Positions 1-32,290 of a stretch of 44,099 nt of DNA are shown here, in pieces. Source of the stretch: Aminivibrio pyruvatiphilus (GTDB lineage: Bacteria > Synergistota > Synergistia > Synergistales > Aminobacteriaceae); contig NZ_SORI01000008.1 of assembly GCF_004366815.1 (NCBI RefSeq), positions 88,132 to 132,230 of the forward strand, read 5' to 3'. The position numbers were made by a program, and so were the translations under genes. The notes beneath the pieces were generated by a model that saw nothing but the letters and a program-made list of their open reading frames with translations, was not told the DNA's origin and did not search any database. Position 1 is the stretch's first letter. Every line of letters starts with the position of its first letter.

Positions 1-32
1 CACCAGGACACATTCGCCTCCCTGCCGAAGCT

Positions 33-61
33 ATGATAAGCCATCCCATATAAGGCGTCAA
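33..61 (-). promoter_or_regulatory. sigma70-like promoter reading out of the window
   Basis: Read on the minus strand there is TTGACG (61-56), a 17-base spacer and TATCAT (38-33). Five of six bases match the -35 consensus and five of six the -10 consensus, at ideal spacing. It would drive a gene to the left of the window, which cannot be seen. No coding region lies between it and the left edge. The call is by inspection only. Confidence 0.5.
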
Positions 62-367
62 CCGCATTCGGGAAATTTTCCCCGTTGTCTGACAAAAGCG
101 AAAAAACCCTCCGGGGGACGTTAGTCCAGTGCGGTTGGAAAAACAACCCGCTGGATCAAATGTCAGCCACCCACGAAAGAATTTCACCGAGTCACGGAGA
201 AAGAGAGAACAGATGAGAACGGATGAGATCGGAAGAGCTCCGAGCTCCTTTCGTCCTCTCTCCTGATGTCCAGGGGCTGCCTTTCAGCACCGGCGGTTTT
301 GCCTTCCTTTGTCCCAAGGGGTAGGATATCCGGGTGAAAGTTCTCAATGAATCAAATATTCTGATGA
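62..367. other. non-coding stretch, no gene recognised
   Basis: All six frames are broken by stops and no RNA gene fold was recognised. Positions 182-202 hold a 'ttcaccgagtcacggagaaag' type string, resembling degenerate repeats scattered in many bacterial genomes. Positions 226-238 happen to equal the 13-base prefix shared by common sequencing adapters (see findings). A short ccctccggggg stretch next to six A residues (108-123) could be a weak terminator for leftward transcription, but its stem is only 3-4 bp. Confidence 0.4.
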
Positions 368-19037: not shown

Positions 19038-19456
19038 GAAACGCCTCCGCACCGGCGGTCGAGCCAGCTCTGGAGAATGAGGGCCGCAGCCACCTTGTCC
19101 ACCTTTCCCTTCCGGTTTTTGCGGGACACATCCCCTTCCAGGAGGGCCTGCTGGGCAATGGACGTGGAGAAGCGCTCATCGTGGAGCACCACCTTCAGGT
19201 CAGGGTACCTGTTCCCGAGCATGGCAGCGCACTCCTCTATCCTCAGGGCCTCCGGCCCCCGGGTCCCGTTGGTCCTGATGGGGATGCCGAGCAGCAGCAT
19301 TTCGGGGTCGTACTGGGCCACCAGGGCGTCCAGTTCCTCGAGCCATGCTCCTTCCGCAGGCAGAACGGCGATCCCCTGGGCGAACATCCCCAGGGGATCG
19401 CTGACCGCCACGCCGATTCTCACTGTTCCGATATCGAGGGCAAGAATTCGTCTCAT
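19034..19456 (-). CDS. ruvX: YqgF/RuvX family Holliday-junction resolvase-like nuclease
   Basis: The 140-residue RNase H-fold protein has [46 protein letters not shown] and [16 protein letters not shown], all hallmarks of YqgF. It is essential in several bacteria for 16S pre-rRNA 5'-end maturation and possibly junction resolution. Its ATG shares one base with the alaS stop (TGATG), which fixes the start at 19456. Its place between alaS and mutS is found in other genomes too. Confidence 0.93.
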
Positions 19457-22104
19457 CAGCTTCGGATCTGTCCCTCCACCCATCCCTGGAAGGCTTCGAA
19501 CACCTTCGGCAGGGCCGCCGGGTCCTTTCCTCCGCCCTGGGCGAGGTTCGGCCGTCCGCCGCCGCCGCCGCCGAGCATTTTCGACGCCTCCCTGACGATC
19601 TTCCCGGCGGACACACCCTTTTCCACCGCCATGTCGTCCGCCATGGAGACAACCTGCACGTTGTCGCCGTCCACCGACGCAAGAAGGATCACGAGGGCAT
19701 CTTCCCTCTTCCCGTTCTTCAGCCTGTCGCCTATCTCCCGGAGCGCATCGGCGCCGACGGCCCCGAAGCTGCCGTACACACCCTGAACTCCCTCGGGGAG
19801 GGCGAACCAGTGAAGGGATTCCTGCAGTCCCGCGCTCAGGGCATTCATCTTCTCCTCGTCGCGCTTTCTCCTCAGGACCTTCACCTCGGCCTGGAGCTGC
19901 TCCACCTTCTCGAGCACGGCGTTTTCGTCCACCGCGAGCATGGCGCCGAGGTCATTCACGTGCCGCCACAGCTTCTGGAAGAGCCTGACGGCCACCAGTC
20001 CCGTGACGGCGGTTATCCTGCGCGTCCCGGAGCCGATGCCCTCCTCGCGGAGGATCTTGAAGCACCCGATCTCTCCCGTGGACGCCACGTGAAGGCCGCC
20101 GCAGAGCTCCGCCGAAAAGTCCGGAATCCTGACCACCCGCACCACGTCGCCGTACTTTTCCTCGAAGAGCGCCTTCGCCCCCATCTCCCGGGCATGCTCC
20201 ATGTCGCTCTCTTCCACCGTAAGGTCCGAATTTTCCAGGATGCGGGCGTTCACTTCCATTTCGACGGCAATAAGCTGCTCTCTGGTCATGGCCTCGAAGT
20301 GGGTGAAGTCGAACCGCAGGCTGCTCTCCCCCACAAGGGAGCCCGACTGCCGCACATGGCCGCCCAGCACGCGGCCCAGGGCCTCGTGAAGCAGGTGCGT
20401 GGCCGTGTGGTTTCTCCTGACGGCGCGCCGCCGTTCGTCGTTCACGCACGACCGCACCGGGTCGCCCACCGCCAGGCTTCCGGAGAGAACCTTCACCTTG
20501 TGGACCACAAGCCCCCTGCAGCGGATCACCGTATCGGTCACTTCGGCCTTGCCGCCCGCAGATGAGAGCACTCCGGTGTCGCCCACCTGTCCGCCCTTCT
20601 CGCCGTAGAAGGCCGTGGAGTCGAGGATGATCTCCCCCTCCATCCCTTCCTCCAGGGAATCCGCTTCCTCTCCGTCCACGATGATGGCGGCCACGGAGTT
20701 CTCCGATTCAGCCATCGCGTACCCCGTGAAAGGCGTATCCCCGAGGCGTTCGTTCAGCTCGCTGTACACGTCGCCCGCCAGGGCGCTCCGCTTCTGCTTG
20801 CTCGAAGCCCGGGCGCGCTCCCGCTGGGCCGTCATCTCCCGGTCGAAGCCCGCCCTGTCCACGGTAAAGCCGTTCTCGTCGGCGATCTCCATGGTCAGCT
20901 CCAGGGGGAAACCGTAGGTATCGTAGAGCACAAAGGCCACGTCGCCGGGAAGCTCGGTCCGTCCGGCGCCCCTCAGCCTGGCGACTTCGCCGTCAAGGAG
21001 TTCCGTTCCCTGCTCGAGGGTCCGGCCGAAGCGCTTCTCCTCCACGTCGATGATCTGCTCCACGGTCAGGCGGTTGTCGATGAGTTCCCGGTAGGGGTCC
21101 CCCATCAGGCCGATCACGTCGGGAAGGAAATCGAGCAGGAAGGGACGGTCCACGCCGAGAAGGCGGCCGAACCTGGCGGCCCGCCGCAGCAGCCTCCGGA
21201 GCACGTAGCCCCTGCCGTCGTTGGAGGGCAGGATGCCGTCGGCGATCATGAAGGCCACCGAGCGGACATGGTCAGCGATCACCCGAACCGCAAGGTCGGT
21301 CTTCGGGCTGTAGCCGTAGTGGATGCCGCCCATGGCGCAGGCCCGCTCGATCATGGGCATGAACAGGTCCGTCTCGAAGTCGGTCCGCACCCGCTGGACG
21401 ATGGACGTCAGCCGCTCGAGCCCCATGCCGGTGTCGATGTTCTTCTTCGGCAGGGGTACCAGGGTTCCGTCCTTCTGAAGGTCAAACTGGGTGAACACGT
21501 GGTTCCAGATCTCCAGGTACCGGTCGCAGTCGCACCCCACGGCGCACTCCGGCCTGCCGCATGAAAACTCCGGCCCCTGGTCGTACATGATCTCCGAACA
21601 GGGACCGCAGGGGCCCTGGTTCCCCATGAACCAGAAATTGTCGTCCTTCCCGAAACGGAAGATGCGCTGGTCGGGAATGCCCACGAGCTTGTGCCAGGTG
21701 TCGTAGGCCTCATCGTCGTCCTCGTAGATGGTCACCGACATGCGGTCCGGCTCGAGGCCGATCACTTCGGTAAGGAACTCCCATCCCCAGGTGATGGACT
21801 CCTTCTTGAAATAGTCCCCCCAGGCGAAATTCCCCAGCATCTCGAAAAAGGTGTGGTGCCGGGCCGTGCGGCCCACGTTGTCGATGTCGTTGGTCCTGAC
21901 GCACTTCTGGGAGGTCACCGCCCGGGGCGCCTCGGGCTTCTGGATGCCGAGGTAGTAGGGCTTGAAGGGCACCATTCCCGCAATGGTGAACAGCAGGGAA
22001 GGATCGTCGGGAATGAGCGAAAAGCTCGGGAAATGTTTGCTCCCCTTGGACACCCAGAAATCAATGAATAGCGAACGTATTTCCTTGCCTGATCTCCACT
22101 GCAT
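19456..22104 (-). CDS. alaS: alanyl-tRNA synthetase
   Basis: The 882-residue class II synthetase shows the catalytic core (FTIAGMVPFKPYYLG, QKCVRTNDIDNVG, HHTFFEMLGNFAWGDYFK), the editing domain with HTATHLLHEAL and CGGLHVASTGEIG, and the C-terminal C-Ala region with GGGGGGRPN. Length matches bacterial AlaRS. An AGGGAGG site lies just before the ATG. It heads the seven-gene operon. Only about 37 bases separate its start from the first repeat unit, so its promoter must lie in or beyond the repeat array. No T-box leader was recognised. Confidence 0.97.
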   Translation of the reverse strand: MQWRSGKEIRSLFIDFWVSKGSKHFPSFSLIPDDPSLLFTIAGMVPFKPYYLGIQKPEAPRAVTSQKCVRTNDIDNVGRTARHHTFFEMLGNFAWGDYFKKESITWGWEFLTEVIGLEPDRMSVTIYEDDDEAYDTWHKLVGIPDQRIFRFGKDDNFWFMGNQGPCGPCSEIMYDQGPEFSCGRPECAVGCDCDRYLEIWNHVFTQFDLQKDGTLVPLPKKNIDTGMGLERLTSIVQRVRTDFETDLFMPMIERACAMGGIHYGYSPKTDLAVRVIADHVRSVAFMIADGILPSNDGRGYVLRRLLRRAARFGRLLGVDRPFLLDFLPDVIGLMGDPYRELIDNRLTVEQIIDVEEKRFGRTLEQGTELLDGEVARLRGAGRTELPGDVAFVLYDTYGFPLELTMEIADENGFTVDRAGFDREMTAQRERARASSKQKRSALAGDVYSELNERLGDTPFTGYAMAESENSVAAIIVDGEEADSLEEGMEGEIILDSTAFYGEKGGQVGDTGVLSSAGGKAEVTDTVIRCRGLVVHKVKVLSGSLAVGDPVRSCVNDERRRAVRRNHTATHLLHEALGRVLGGHVRQSGSLVGESSLRFDFTHFEAMTREQLIAVEMEVNARILENSDLTVEESDMEHAREMGAKALFEEKYGDVVRVVRIPDFSAELCGGLHVASTGEIGCFKILREEGIGSGTRRITAVTGLVAVRLFQKLWRHVNDLGAMLAVDENAVLEKVEQLQAEVKVLRRKRDEEKMNALSAGLQESLHWFALPEGVQGVYGSFGAVGADALREIGDRLKNGKREDALVILLASVDGDNVQVVSMADDMAVEKGVSAGKIVREASKMLGGGGGGRPNLAQGGGKDPAALPKVFEAFQGWVEGQIRS

Positions 22105-22141
22105 GAATATTCTTCCTCCCTGATTGCTGTCTATGGCCAGT

Positions 22142-23120
22142 TTGTCATCCTGAGGCCGGCTCTTTGGCCGAAGGATCTCGCTTTTTTGTCATCCTGAGGC
22201 CGGCTCTTTGGCCGAAGGATCTCGCCTTTTTGTCATCCTGAGGCCGGCTCTTTGGCCGAGGGATTAAGCCTTTCTGTCATCCTGAGGCCGGCTCTTTGGC
22301 CGAGGGATTAAGCCTTTCTGTCATCCTGAGGCCGGCTCTTTGGCCGAAGGATCTCGCCTTTTTGTCATCCTGAGGCCGGCCCTTTGGCCGAGGGATTAAG
22401 CCTTTCTGTCATCCTGAGGCCGGCCCTTTGGCCGAAGGATCTCGGGGTTGGGTCTGAAGGCCCTAAGACCAGATCCTTCCCCTCCGGGGACGCGATCGCT
22501 CCGCTCAGGATGACACCCTCTCTGTCATCCTGAGGCCGGCCCTTTGGCCGAAGGATCTCGGGGTTGATTCTGAATGAAGTCAAATACGAGATCCTTCACT
22601 TCGTTCAGGATGACAAATCTTCTGTCATCCTGAGGCCGGCTCTTTGGCCGAAGGATCTCGGGGTTGATTCTGAATGAAGTCAAATACGAGATCCTTCACT
22701 TCGTTCAGGATGACAAATCTTCTGTCATCCTGAGGCCGGCCCTTTGGCCGAAGGATCTCGGGGTTGATTCTGAATGAAGTCAAATACGAGATCCTCCCCC
22801 TCCGGGGACGCGATCGCTCCGCTCAGGATGACACCCTCTCTGTCATCCTGAGGCCGGCCCTTTGGCCGAAGGATCTCGCCTTTTTGTCATCCTGAGGCCG
22901 GCCCTTTGGCCGAAGGATCTCGCCTCTCTGTCATCCTGAGGCCGGCCCTTTGGCCGAAGGATCTCGCCTTTTTGTCATCCTGAGGCCGGCTCTTTGGCCG
23001 AAGGATCTCGGGTTGATTCTGAATGAAGTCAAATACGAGATCCTCCCCCTCCGGGGACGCGATCGCTCCGCTCAGGATGACACCCCAGGCTCCTCGGGCT
23101 TCGCCCTTCGGAATGACAAG
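22142..23120. repeat. repeat block 1: 14 GTCATCC units in 44- and 100-bp periods
   Basis: Fourteen left arms begin TGTCATCCTGAGGCCGG. They start at 22142, 22186, 22230, 22274, 22318, 22362 and 22406 (exactly 44 bp apart), then 22522, 22622 and 22722 (exactly 100 bp apart), then 22840, 22884, 22928 and 22972 (44 bp again). Each short unit is an imperfect hairpin (ATCCTgaGGCC ... GGCCgaAGGAT). Long units end in the opposite arm CTCAGGATGACA or TTCAGGATGACA, giving larger palindromes, some containing CGCGATCGCTCCG. Two tail types alternate: AAGGATCTCG and AGGGATTAAG. It fills the whole gap between mtaD and alaS. A degraded last piece (TTCGGAATGACA) ends near 23120. Confidence 0.95.
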
Positions 23121-23134
23121 CTACTACAACACCC

Positions 23135-24415
23135 CTACCCCTTCAGCAGATTATCGCGCATTTCCCTCGCCTTGGCGAGGATTTTCTCCGCGTCCGCACC
23201 CGGAAACCTCCCGTCCCGGTACAGCCATTTCCCGGCGACCATGGTTCCCGTCACATCGGCGGAGCTTCCGGCATACACGAAGAACTGGGCTGCGTTTTCC
23301 CCGTCGATCCCCACGTACTCCGGCCTGTCCAGGTCCACCATCACGAAGTCGGCGGCCCAGCCTTCCCGGATCATCCCCTTCTTTTCAAACCCCAGGGCTT
23401 CCGCCCCCTCGAAGGTGGCCATTCGCAGCACATCCCTGGCGGGAACGGCGGTGGGGTCCTTCGCGATCCCCTTATGGACAAGCGCCGCGGACCGCATCTC
23501 CCCCCACACGTCGAGGCGGTTGTTGCTGGCCGCGCCGTCGGTGCCAAGGGCAATTTTCCTTGTCTTTTCCATCATGCCCGGCAGGTTCATCATGCCGCTG
23601 CCCAGCTTCTGGTTGCTCTTCGGGTTATGGGCGACGGTCATCCGGGAGAAATCCACCTCGTTCAGGACGGCGGGGTCGAGCCACACGCAGTGGGCCAGCA
23701 CCGCCTGCTGGACCTCCGGCAGGCCCGCCTCCCTGAGATATTCCGCCGGGGTCATTTTCATCTCGTCTTTCAGGTAGCCGGTCTCCCACTCCGCCTCCAG
23801 GAAATGGAAGTGGATCCCCAGGTTCCGGTCCTTCGCCGCCGCCACGATCTCCTTCAAAAAGGGCAGAGGCACCGTGTAGGGAGCGTGGGGGGCGAGCTGC
23901 ACCGTGACGAACTCCTCCCTGCCCTTCCAGGTCTCGGCAAGCAGTAGGCCTTCATCCAGCTTCACCTTCTCCGGTCCCACGATGCCCCGGCTGACGGCGC
24001 ACTTCATGCCCATCTCCAGGGACGCCTCCACCACTGAATCCATGAAAAAATACATGTCGCCGAAGGCCGTTATGCCGTTCGCCGCCATCTCGAGCAGGGC
24101 GAGCATGGTGCCCCAATAGACGTGCTCACTTCTGAGCTTCGCCTCGGCGGGCCAGATTTTCTCCTTCAGCCACTCCATGAGAGGAGCCTCTTCGCCGATC
24201 CCCCGCAGCAGGCTCATGGCCGCATGGGTATGGGCATTCACAAAGCCAGGAAGAAGGGCGGACTTCCCTCCGCCGTCCACTGTTTCCGCAGCGGGGGGAT
24301 TCCAGTCCGGCGCCCCGATGGAAACGATCCGGCCGCCCTCCACCATCACCGAACCGTACCGGGCCGACTCCATTCCGCCGTCACAGAGCAGAAAGTTTTT
24401 CAGCAGAAGGGCCAT
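23135..24415 (-). CDS. mtaD: 5'-methylthioadenosine / S-adenosylhomocysteine deaminase
   Basis: The 426-residue amidohydrolase has the metal motif H-x-H (H62, H64 in NAHTHAAMSLLRG), LAPHAPYTVP, HFHFLEAEWE, LAHCVWLD and the catalytic Asp in GTDGAASNN. This combination is that of the MtaD/SAH deaminase subfamily, which turns MTA and SAH into methylthioinosine and S-inosylhomocysteine. The 5'-deoxyadenosine deaminase of methanogens is a close relative, so exact substrate preference is not settled. It follows the adenosylhomocysteinase gene with one base between (TGAcATG), and is the last gene of the unit before repeat block 1. Confidence 0.9.
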   Translation of the reverse strand: MALLLKNFLLCDGGMESARYGSVMVEGGRIVSIGAPDWNPPAAETVDGGGKSALLPGFVNAHTHAAMSLLRGIGEEAPLMEWLKEKIWPAEAKLRSEHVYWGTMLALLEMAANGITAFGDMYFFMDSVVEASLEMGMKCAVSRGIVGPEKVKLDEGLLLAETWKGREEFVTVQLAPHAPYTVPLPFLKEIVAAAKDRNLGIHFHFLEAEWETGYLKDEMKMTPAEYLREAGLPEVQQAVLAHCVWLDPAVLNEVDFSRMTVAHNPKSNQKLGSGMMNLPGMMEKTRKIALGTDGAASNNRLDVWGEMRSAALVHKGIAKDPTAVPARDVLRMATFEGAEALGFEKKGMIREGWAADFVMVDLDRPEYVGIDGENAAQFFVYAGSSADVTGTMVAGKWLYRDGRFPGADAEKILAKAREMRDNLLKG

Positions 24416-26710: not shown

Positions 26711-27483
26711 TTGTCATCCTGAGGAGCGTTATTTATCTGTCAACCTGAGGAGCGCAGCGACGAAGGATCTCGGGTTGAAGACTGTCAAGAATCAAGAGCA
26801 GATCCTTCGCTCCGCTCAGGATGACAAGCAAAACCTGGAGCTCTCAACTGCGAGATCCTTCCCCTCCGGGGACGCGATCACTTCGTTCAGGATGACAAGC
26901 ATGGATCCCGCTTCGCTCGGGATGGCACCCTCTTTGTCATCCTGAGGAGCGCAGCGACGAAGGATCTCGGGTTGAGGACTGTCAAGAATCAAGAGCAGAT
27001 CCTTCCCCTCCGGGGACGCGATCGCTTCGCTCGGGATGGCAAGCATGGATCCCGCTTCGCTCGGGATGGCACCCGCTTTGTCATCCTGAGGAGCGCAGCG
27101 ACGAAGGATCTCGGGTTGAGGACTGTCAAGAATCAAGAGCAGATCCTTCCCCTCCGGGGACGCGATCACTTCGCTCAGGATGACAACCATGGATCCCGCT
27201 TCGCTCGGGATGGCACCCTCTTTGTCATCCTGAGGCCGGTTTTTGGCCGAAGGATCTCGGGGTGAGGCTCCTCCAGAAACAAGAGCAGATCCTTCCCCTC
27301 CGGGGACGCGATCACTTCGTTCAGGATGACAAGCATGGATCCCGCTTCGCTCGGGATGGCACCCGCTTTGTCATCCTGAGGAGCGCAGCGACGAAGGATC
27401 TCGGCTTGAGGACTGTCAAGAATCAAGAACAGATCCTTCCCCTCCGGGGATGCTGTGCGATCGCTCCGCTCGGGATGACAAAA
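26711..27483. repeat. repeat block 2: GTCATCC palindromic units, about 145-bp tandem
   Basis: Units beginning TTGTCATCCTGAGGAGCGCAGCGACGAAGGATC style sequence and ending in CGCTCAGGATGACA or CGGGATGGCA recur with starts near 26711, 26739 (diverged), 26933, 27078, 27221 and 27367. The last four are spaced 144-146 bp. Inside are alternating arms: AAGGATCTCGGG..., GAGCAGATCCTTCCCCTCCG and GGGGACGCGATC. One unit (27221) has the GGCCGG... GGCC variant typical of block 1. The block spans the gap between xseA and mtnA. Apparent open frames in it are formed by the repeats and are not genes. Confidence 0.92.
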
Positions 27484-31602: not shown

Positions 31603-32290
31603 GCTGTCATCCCGAGCGGAGCCCTGTTGTCATTCCGAGCGGAGCGATCGCGCAAGTTTGCCCTTTGCCTGTCATCCTGACGGCGTGCTTTTCCGCCGGA
31701 AGGATCTGCTCTTGATTCTAAAGCTCCTCAACCCCGAATCAACCCCGAGATCCTTCGTCGCAAAACCCGCTCCTCAGGATGACAAACAAGGGCAAGCCCG
31801 AGATTCCTCCCCTCCGGGGACGCGATCGTCGCATAAACCTCGATTTTGCTGTCATCCTGAGCGGAGCGATCGCGCAAGTTTGCCCTTTGCCTGTCATCCT
31901 GACGGCGTGCTTTTCCGCCGGAAGGATCTGCTCTTGATTCTAAAGCTCCTCAACCCCGAATCAACCCCGAGATCCTTCGTCGCAAAACCCGCTCCTCAGG
32001 ATGACAACGATTGTTTCACCCTGAGCAGAGGAATCTTGTTTTGGTGTCATCCTGAGCGGAGCGATCGCGTCCCCGGAGGGGAAGGATCTGCTCTTGACTC
32101 TCAACAGCCTCAACCCCGAGATCCTTCGTCGCAAAACCCGCTCCTCAGGATGACAGCGATTATTTCACCCTGAGCAGAGCGAGGAATCTTGTTTTGCTGT
32201 CATCCTGAGCGGAGCGAAGGATCTCGCTTTTGAGAAAACCCAGAACCAAGAACAGATCCTTCGTCGCAAAACCCGCTCCTCAGGATGACA
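31603..32290. repeat. repeat block 3: GTCATCC palindromic units with a 149-bp exact direct repeat
   Basis: The region between pilQ and efp is filled with arms of the same family: GTCATCCTGAGCGGAGCGATCGCG, GACGGCGTGC...GGAAGGATCTG, GAGATCCTTCGTCGCAAAACC and CTCCTCAGGATGACA. Positions 31637-31785 and 31859-32007 are identical over about 149 bases, separated by a 222-bp offset. Further partial copies follow to 32290. Some arms read 'cattccgagcgga', a diverged form. Confidence 0.92.

Follow-up and report, generated by a model that had tools for sequence, protein, structure and literature searches.

The closest described relatives of the locus examined here are REP palindromes, a kind of short repeat already known from bacteria. 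Those of the CGTC superfamily occur without a dedicated transposase (PMC3733652), and Synergistota is not among the phyla listed for that superfamily (Di Nocera et al. 2013, PMC3733652). In P. fluorescens SBW25, REPs and REPINs have been described that form tandem arrays with even spacing (PMC3116915). Our literature search on Synergistetes returned no paper on REPs there, judged by title and abstract, and a search for the exact head sequence gave only chance occurrences, apparently primers. We analysed a 44,099-nt stretch of DNA (the window), in which the array upstream of alaS is a cluster of such REP palindromes.

The array lies between alaS (19456–22104, minus strand; PF01411) and an amidohydrolase gene (23135–24415, minus strand; identified by PF01979 and synteny). 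Fourteen unit starts (the T of TGTC) fall within 22143–22973, spaced in steps of 44, then 100, then again 44 bp. The first block consists of seven head-to-tail REPs of the long type (22143–22450, plus strand), with TGTCATCCTGAG starts at 22143, 22187, 22231, 22275, 22319, 22363, and 22407. The last of these starts also opens a 116-bp inverted-pair unit (22407–22522, plus strand), in which a long-type REP on the plus strand is paired with a short-type REP on the minus strand (head at 22514). Two 100-bp BIME/REPIN-like units follow (22523–22722, plus strand), each made of a long REP on the plus strand and a short REP with CGAAGTG on the minus strand (heads at 22614 and 22714); the 100-bp steps run through starts at 22523, 22623, and 22723. 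The third of these starts belongs to a 118-bp inverted-pair unit (22723–22840, plus strand; minus-strand head at 22832), which, like the 116-bp unit, links two blocks. Four more head-to-tail long-type REPs with a 44-bp period come next (22841–23010, plus strand; starts at 22841, 22885, 22929, and 22973). Inverted short REPs on the minus strand are thus found within every 100-, 116-, and 118-bp unit, and two more stand at the right edge (23011–23120, minus strand), where an inverted REP (head at 23081) closes the array beside a decayed one (head at 23117) that is 15–16 bp past the amidohydrolase stop codon.

The 44/100/44-bp periodicity claimed in the preliminary description is borne out by these starts and by TRF, which returned periods of 44 bp (6.9 copies), 132 bp (three units, 2.3 copies), 100 bp (2.9 copies), and 44 bp (3.9 copies). 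An 11-mer is present in fourteen exact copies within 1 kb, compared with about 0.0005 expected by chance. The same description overlooked the short palindromes in inverted orientation, which turn the 100-, 116-, and 118-bp units into BIME/REPIN-like pairs. It also had two tail types mixed along the array; both are present, but the mixing is limited to the first seven units, with AGGGATTAAG in units 3, 4, and 6 and AAGGATCTCG in the remaining eleven units.

Folding agrees with the hairpin proposed for each 44-bp unit. Every 44-mer forms ATCCT-GA-GGCC...GGCC-GA-AGGAT, in which a tandem GA/GA separates the 5-bp outer stem from an inner stem of GGCC; the AGGGATTAAG tail, as read from its letters, preserves the stem via a G-T pair. 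A 100-bp unit folds into one long hairpin (z = −6.8). Across the family the frame is TGTC-N5-GA-(variable stem-loop)-GA-N5'-CT, and its stem is kept by compensatory changes. Complementary 5-nt arms were found at 264 sites, compared with a mean of 127 and a maximum of 141 for shuffled arms; the test fixed nothing but the GA steps and the TGTC tag, and because shuffling keeps the dominant arm type, this control is conservative. The six major outer-stem types are ATCCT/AGGAT (165), ATCCC/GGGAT (32), ATTCT/AGAAT (20), GTCCT/AGGAC (19), ATTCC/GGAAT (9), and GTCCC/GGGAC (6). The tandem GA is nearly invariant, directly following TGTCATCCT in 200 of 202 cases and preceding AGGATCT in 142 of about 158, and the family has more than 100 different inner sequences. 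Taken by themselves, the four bases of the inner stem gave weak covariation (six arm types, with fifty-three of 5000 shuffles as good), so it is the outer stem that carries the argument for compensation.

A DNA search of the window's own genome (G000) identified the family at more than 150 places, with REP clusters on many contigs. The strict pattern GTCATCCTGAG-N4..30-AGGATCT has at least 125 copies in this genome, 84 in its sister species G001, and 157 in its sister species G002, while G003 has two and G004 none; reversed-pattern controls gave zero. A slightly wider pattern was found in 11 of 188 Synergistota genomes, with at most seven copies outside the three sister species (0–7 in the other 185). 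As counts are high in these three species only, the family's expansion belongs to a single small clade within a Synergistaceae genus. It is not private to this genus, since the exact 27-bp core TGTCATCCTGAGCGAAGCGAAGGATCT also occurs in thirteen IMG/VR viral contigs (L058–L070, GC 47–69 per cent), several of which have an inverted partner nearby. An Rfam scan gave nothing above gathering scores, and its MIR2933 and SAH-riboswitch matches were sub-threshold. With hairpins of 26–37 bp and compensatory stem types, the units agree with REPs as imperfect palindromes of 20–40 bp with conserved structure, and they share the high copy number (at least 125 strict copies) and dispersal (many contigs) of REPs. 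Intergenic position was seen for two clusters, the alaS array and one at 26739–27480, each between Pfam-identified genes; mechanical ORFs run through the arrays.

Gene order on the minus strand is IF-2B-like protein, SAH hydrolase, amidohydrolase, alaS, mutS. The amidohydrolase–alaS gap is 1030 bp here and 33 bp in the nearest array-free relative (L018, the G004 locus). Other array-free relatives have gaps of roughly 28–47 bp (L021, L024) or about 130 bp (L019, L025), and in these relatives the two genes are codirectional and in the same order, which is ancestral. The short gap and kept order place the array inside an ancestral operon, and the earlier view that it fills a gap between two operons is not supported. 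The alaS ATG at 22104 is 38 bp from the array edge (about 37 bp had been claimed), and this whole interval is the alaS leader (22105–22142, minus strand), with the ribosome-binding site GGGAGGA and a sequence kept in the G001 locus (L017).

It had also been argued that the alaS promoter must sit in or behind the array. We found no sigma-70-like promoter match inside it, so a promoter there is not indicated; one weak sigma-70 match overlaps the alaS start and another falls where the amidohydrolase gene ends. There is likewise no intrinsic-terminator-like site in the alaS direction inside the array, and no T-box or other alaS leader RNA was found. With neither promoter-like nor terminator-like sites in the array, read-through is the simplest inference, and alaS is probably transcribed through the array from upstream. 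The array as the alaS promoter was dropped as a candidate, given that neither the orientation nor the content of the units is conserved.

About fifty-nine clusters were sampled, in regions picked for having REPs (so that totals are not genome-wide frequencies), with a unit parser that tolerated mismatches and counted some overlapping heads a second time. In these clusters the usual arrangement is an alternation of orientation between long-loop and short-loop REPs at a spacing of 30–80 bp, and neighbouring pairs comprise sixty-seven with tags outside, fifty-five with tags inside, and forty-five in the same direction. Clusters are homogenised locally. Identical long inner sequences make up 23 per cent of within-cluster pairs and 0.6 per cent of those between clusters (about 36 times commoner within), and without the alaS array the values are 20 per cent and 0.65 per cent. 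Exact internal matches in the alaS array are offset by 44, 88, 132, 100, and 200 bp, and clusters elsewhere, both in the window and in the rest of the genome, have periods of their own (144, 104, 122, 240, and 365 bp). Cluster-specific loops, internal offsets, and individual periods are the pattern expected from repeated local duplication, and local tandem duplication is likely the amplifier of REP clusters. The suggestion of amplification by unequal exchange or slippage was supported by the offset matches, by the cluster-specific loops, and by a complete rearrangement between sister species (see below). The regularity had been called unexpected for an ordinary REP cluster, a view not supported here: REPs are present in forty-three of the fifty-two TRF rows from the sampled regions, and evenly spaced tandem REP/REPIN arrays are known in SBW25 (PMC3116915).

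The second array of the family in the window (26739–27480) has a 144-bp period and 4.1 copies, lies between the IF-2B-like gene and xseA, and is present in G001 and G002 with different content. A third REP cluster (31671–32290) strictly alternates in orientation, and its loop GAGCGGGTTTTGCGAC is common to the orthologous place in G001. Elsewhere in the genome (L056, G000:C20 21825–22099), a 153-bp exact overlapping tandem repeat lies in a same-direction REP cluster with the loop CGAATGCG.

The amidohydrolase–alaS gap holds REP clusters in all three sister species, over about 430 bp in G001 and about 970 bp in G002. Flanking genes share 93–97 per cent DNA identity with the window's genome in G001 and 90–95 per cent in G002. 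No orthologous unit order is left at this gap among the three species, and the GGCC-type REP is oppositely oriented in G002. The next two clusters of the window show similar turnover, and the third is better conserved with G001. The turnover of cluster content is fast enough that the layout seen here is found in neither sister species.

We consider it very probable that the array is a TGTC-tagged REP cluster of ancestral inverted pairs in which a 44-bp unit was locally multiplied, lying inside an operon and read through into alaS. Dispersed inverted pairs, each a long-loop REP facing a short-loop REP over 100–118 bp and foldable into one hairpin, would have been present at the amidohydrolase–alaS junction before the three species split. 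In this lineage, one pair would have lost its short arm to give the 44-bp unit, and unequal exchange or replication slippage at repeats prone to form hairpins would then have multiplied this unit head to tail. Transcription of alaS would pass through the cluster and translation would start from its own leader, with a presumably near-neutral effect on alaS. Local duplication does not account for REP dispersal between sites, which counts against this explanation.

A possible but doubtful alternative is a functional RNA within the operon, whose hairpins would stabilise the SAHH–amidohydrolase message or uncouple it from alaS, with array length tuning the ratio. REPs within 15 nt of E. coli stop codons have been proposed to act on translation and mRNA (PMC12306157), and the array sits between codirectional genes, beginning 15 bp past a stop codon and ending 38 bp short of alaS. 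Its whole minus strand folds at z = −9.0 (twenty shuffles), and a REP cluster is retained at the junction in all three sister species. However, there is no conservation of the type, order, or orientation of units (the GGCC REP of G002 is reversed), and G001 has an array of only about 430 bp, while array-free relatives work with a 33-bp gap.

It is improbable that the units arose through individual insertions by a mobilising enzyme, either a RAYT or another transposase. Dispersal to dozens of sites needs some copying, and GTAG REPs have RAYTs (PMC3733652), but neither Y1_Tnp (PF01797) nor the TnpB C-terminal domain was found in any of the five genus genomes, and control searches were positive (for Y1_Tnp in E. 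coli and others). The exact 44-bp head-to-tail order and the cluster-specific variants fit duplication rather than repeated insertion.

An assembly artefact, with repeats collapsed or falsely joined, is very improbable even though the draft comprises sixty-two contigs, contains N gaps, and has REP sequence close to the ends of contigs C4 (one REP) and C41 (clusters), as the array's longest exact repeat is 99 bp, its units carry distinguishing variants, REP clusters occupy the same gap in independent assemblies of two sister species, and collapse, if any, would mean a longer true array. A longest exact repeat of 99 bp makes the array resolvable by ordinary reads. Its copy number is not certain, given a short-read-like scaffold and an N gap just before the window, and the true array may be longer if longer perfect stretches were collapsed. 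Window positions 1–97 (G000:C8 88132–88228) share an exact repeat of up to 139 bp with G000:C8 79400–79538 and 87894–88032. This repeat, which lies beside an N gap, resembles part of a tRNA-Sec (selC) gene with its flank and is possibly a mobile-element integration site or a scaffolding duplicate.

The locus demonstrates that growth of a REP array is possible within an operon, in front of an essential gene. Three closely related genomes with different REP arrays in the same gaps are a good case for how REPs without a dedicated transposase multiply. A broader reading, which we hold to be rather unlikely, is that this family without IS200/IS605-type enzymes expanded in one small clade mainly by recombination. 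Its clusters would then behave like fast-evolving satellites inside operons, and even between sister species they would alter the RNA structure and the spacing in front of an essential gene.

Compared with known systems, the array resembles enterobacterial BIMEs, which have regularly spaced REPs of alternating orientation (PMC2817692). Alternation is seen here in the 100/116/118-bp part and in most other clusters, though not in the 44-bp parts; the sequences are unrelated, and the array has no consensus IHF site. With the REPINs and ordered arrays of SBW25 (PMC3116915) it shares inverted REP doublets that fold into one hairpin and evenly spaced tandem arrays that include flanking sequence, so the regularity of tandem REP arrays is not new. 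The SBW25 REPs are of the GTAG type, with RAYT genes and unrelated sequence, whereas the tag here is TGTC and Y1_Tnp is absent. Likeness to the CGTC superfamily (PMC3733652) extends to short palindromes, inverted pairs, and the tag, of which TGTC is an allowed variant (TGTC in 234 and CGTC in 5 of 248 units, with one head mismatch allowed). The stem starts with AT in most types (ATxxx, with GTCCT and GTCCC in the minority), and the five genus genomes lack Y1_Tnp and TnpB domains. The superfamily's stem of 8–9 bp and loop of 4–5 nt differ from the 5 bp, internal tandem GA/GA, and 2–5 bp found here with loops of 3–8 nt, those of the long type exceeding 4–5 nt. Its 3-nt unpaired tail is mostly CCA, where ours is CTC or CTG, and clusters and head-to-tail neighbours, common here, are rare or negligible there. 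As tag, stem start, and missing transposase fit but loop size and tail do not, we regard this as a CGTC-like REP family rather than a proven member of the superfamily, which extends TGTC/CGTC-like REPs to a phylum absent from the 2013 survey's list.
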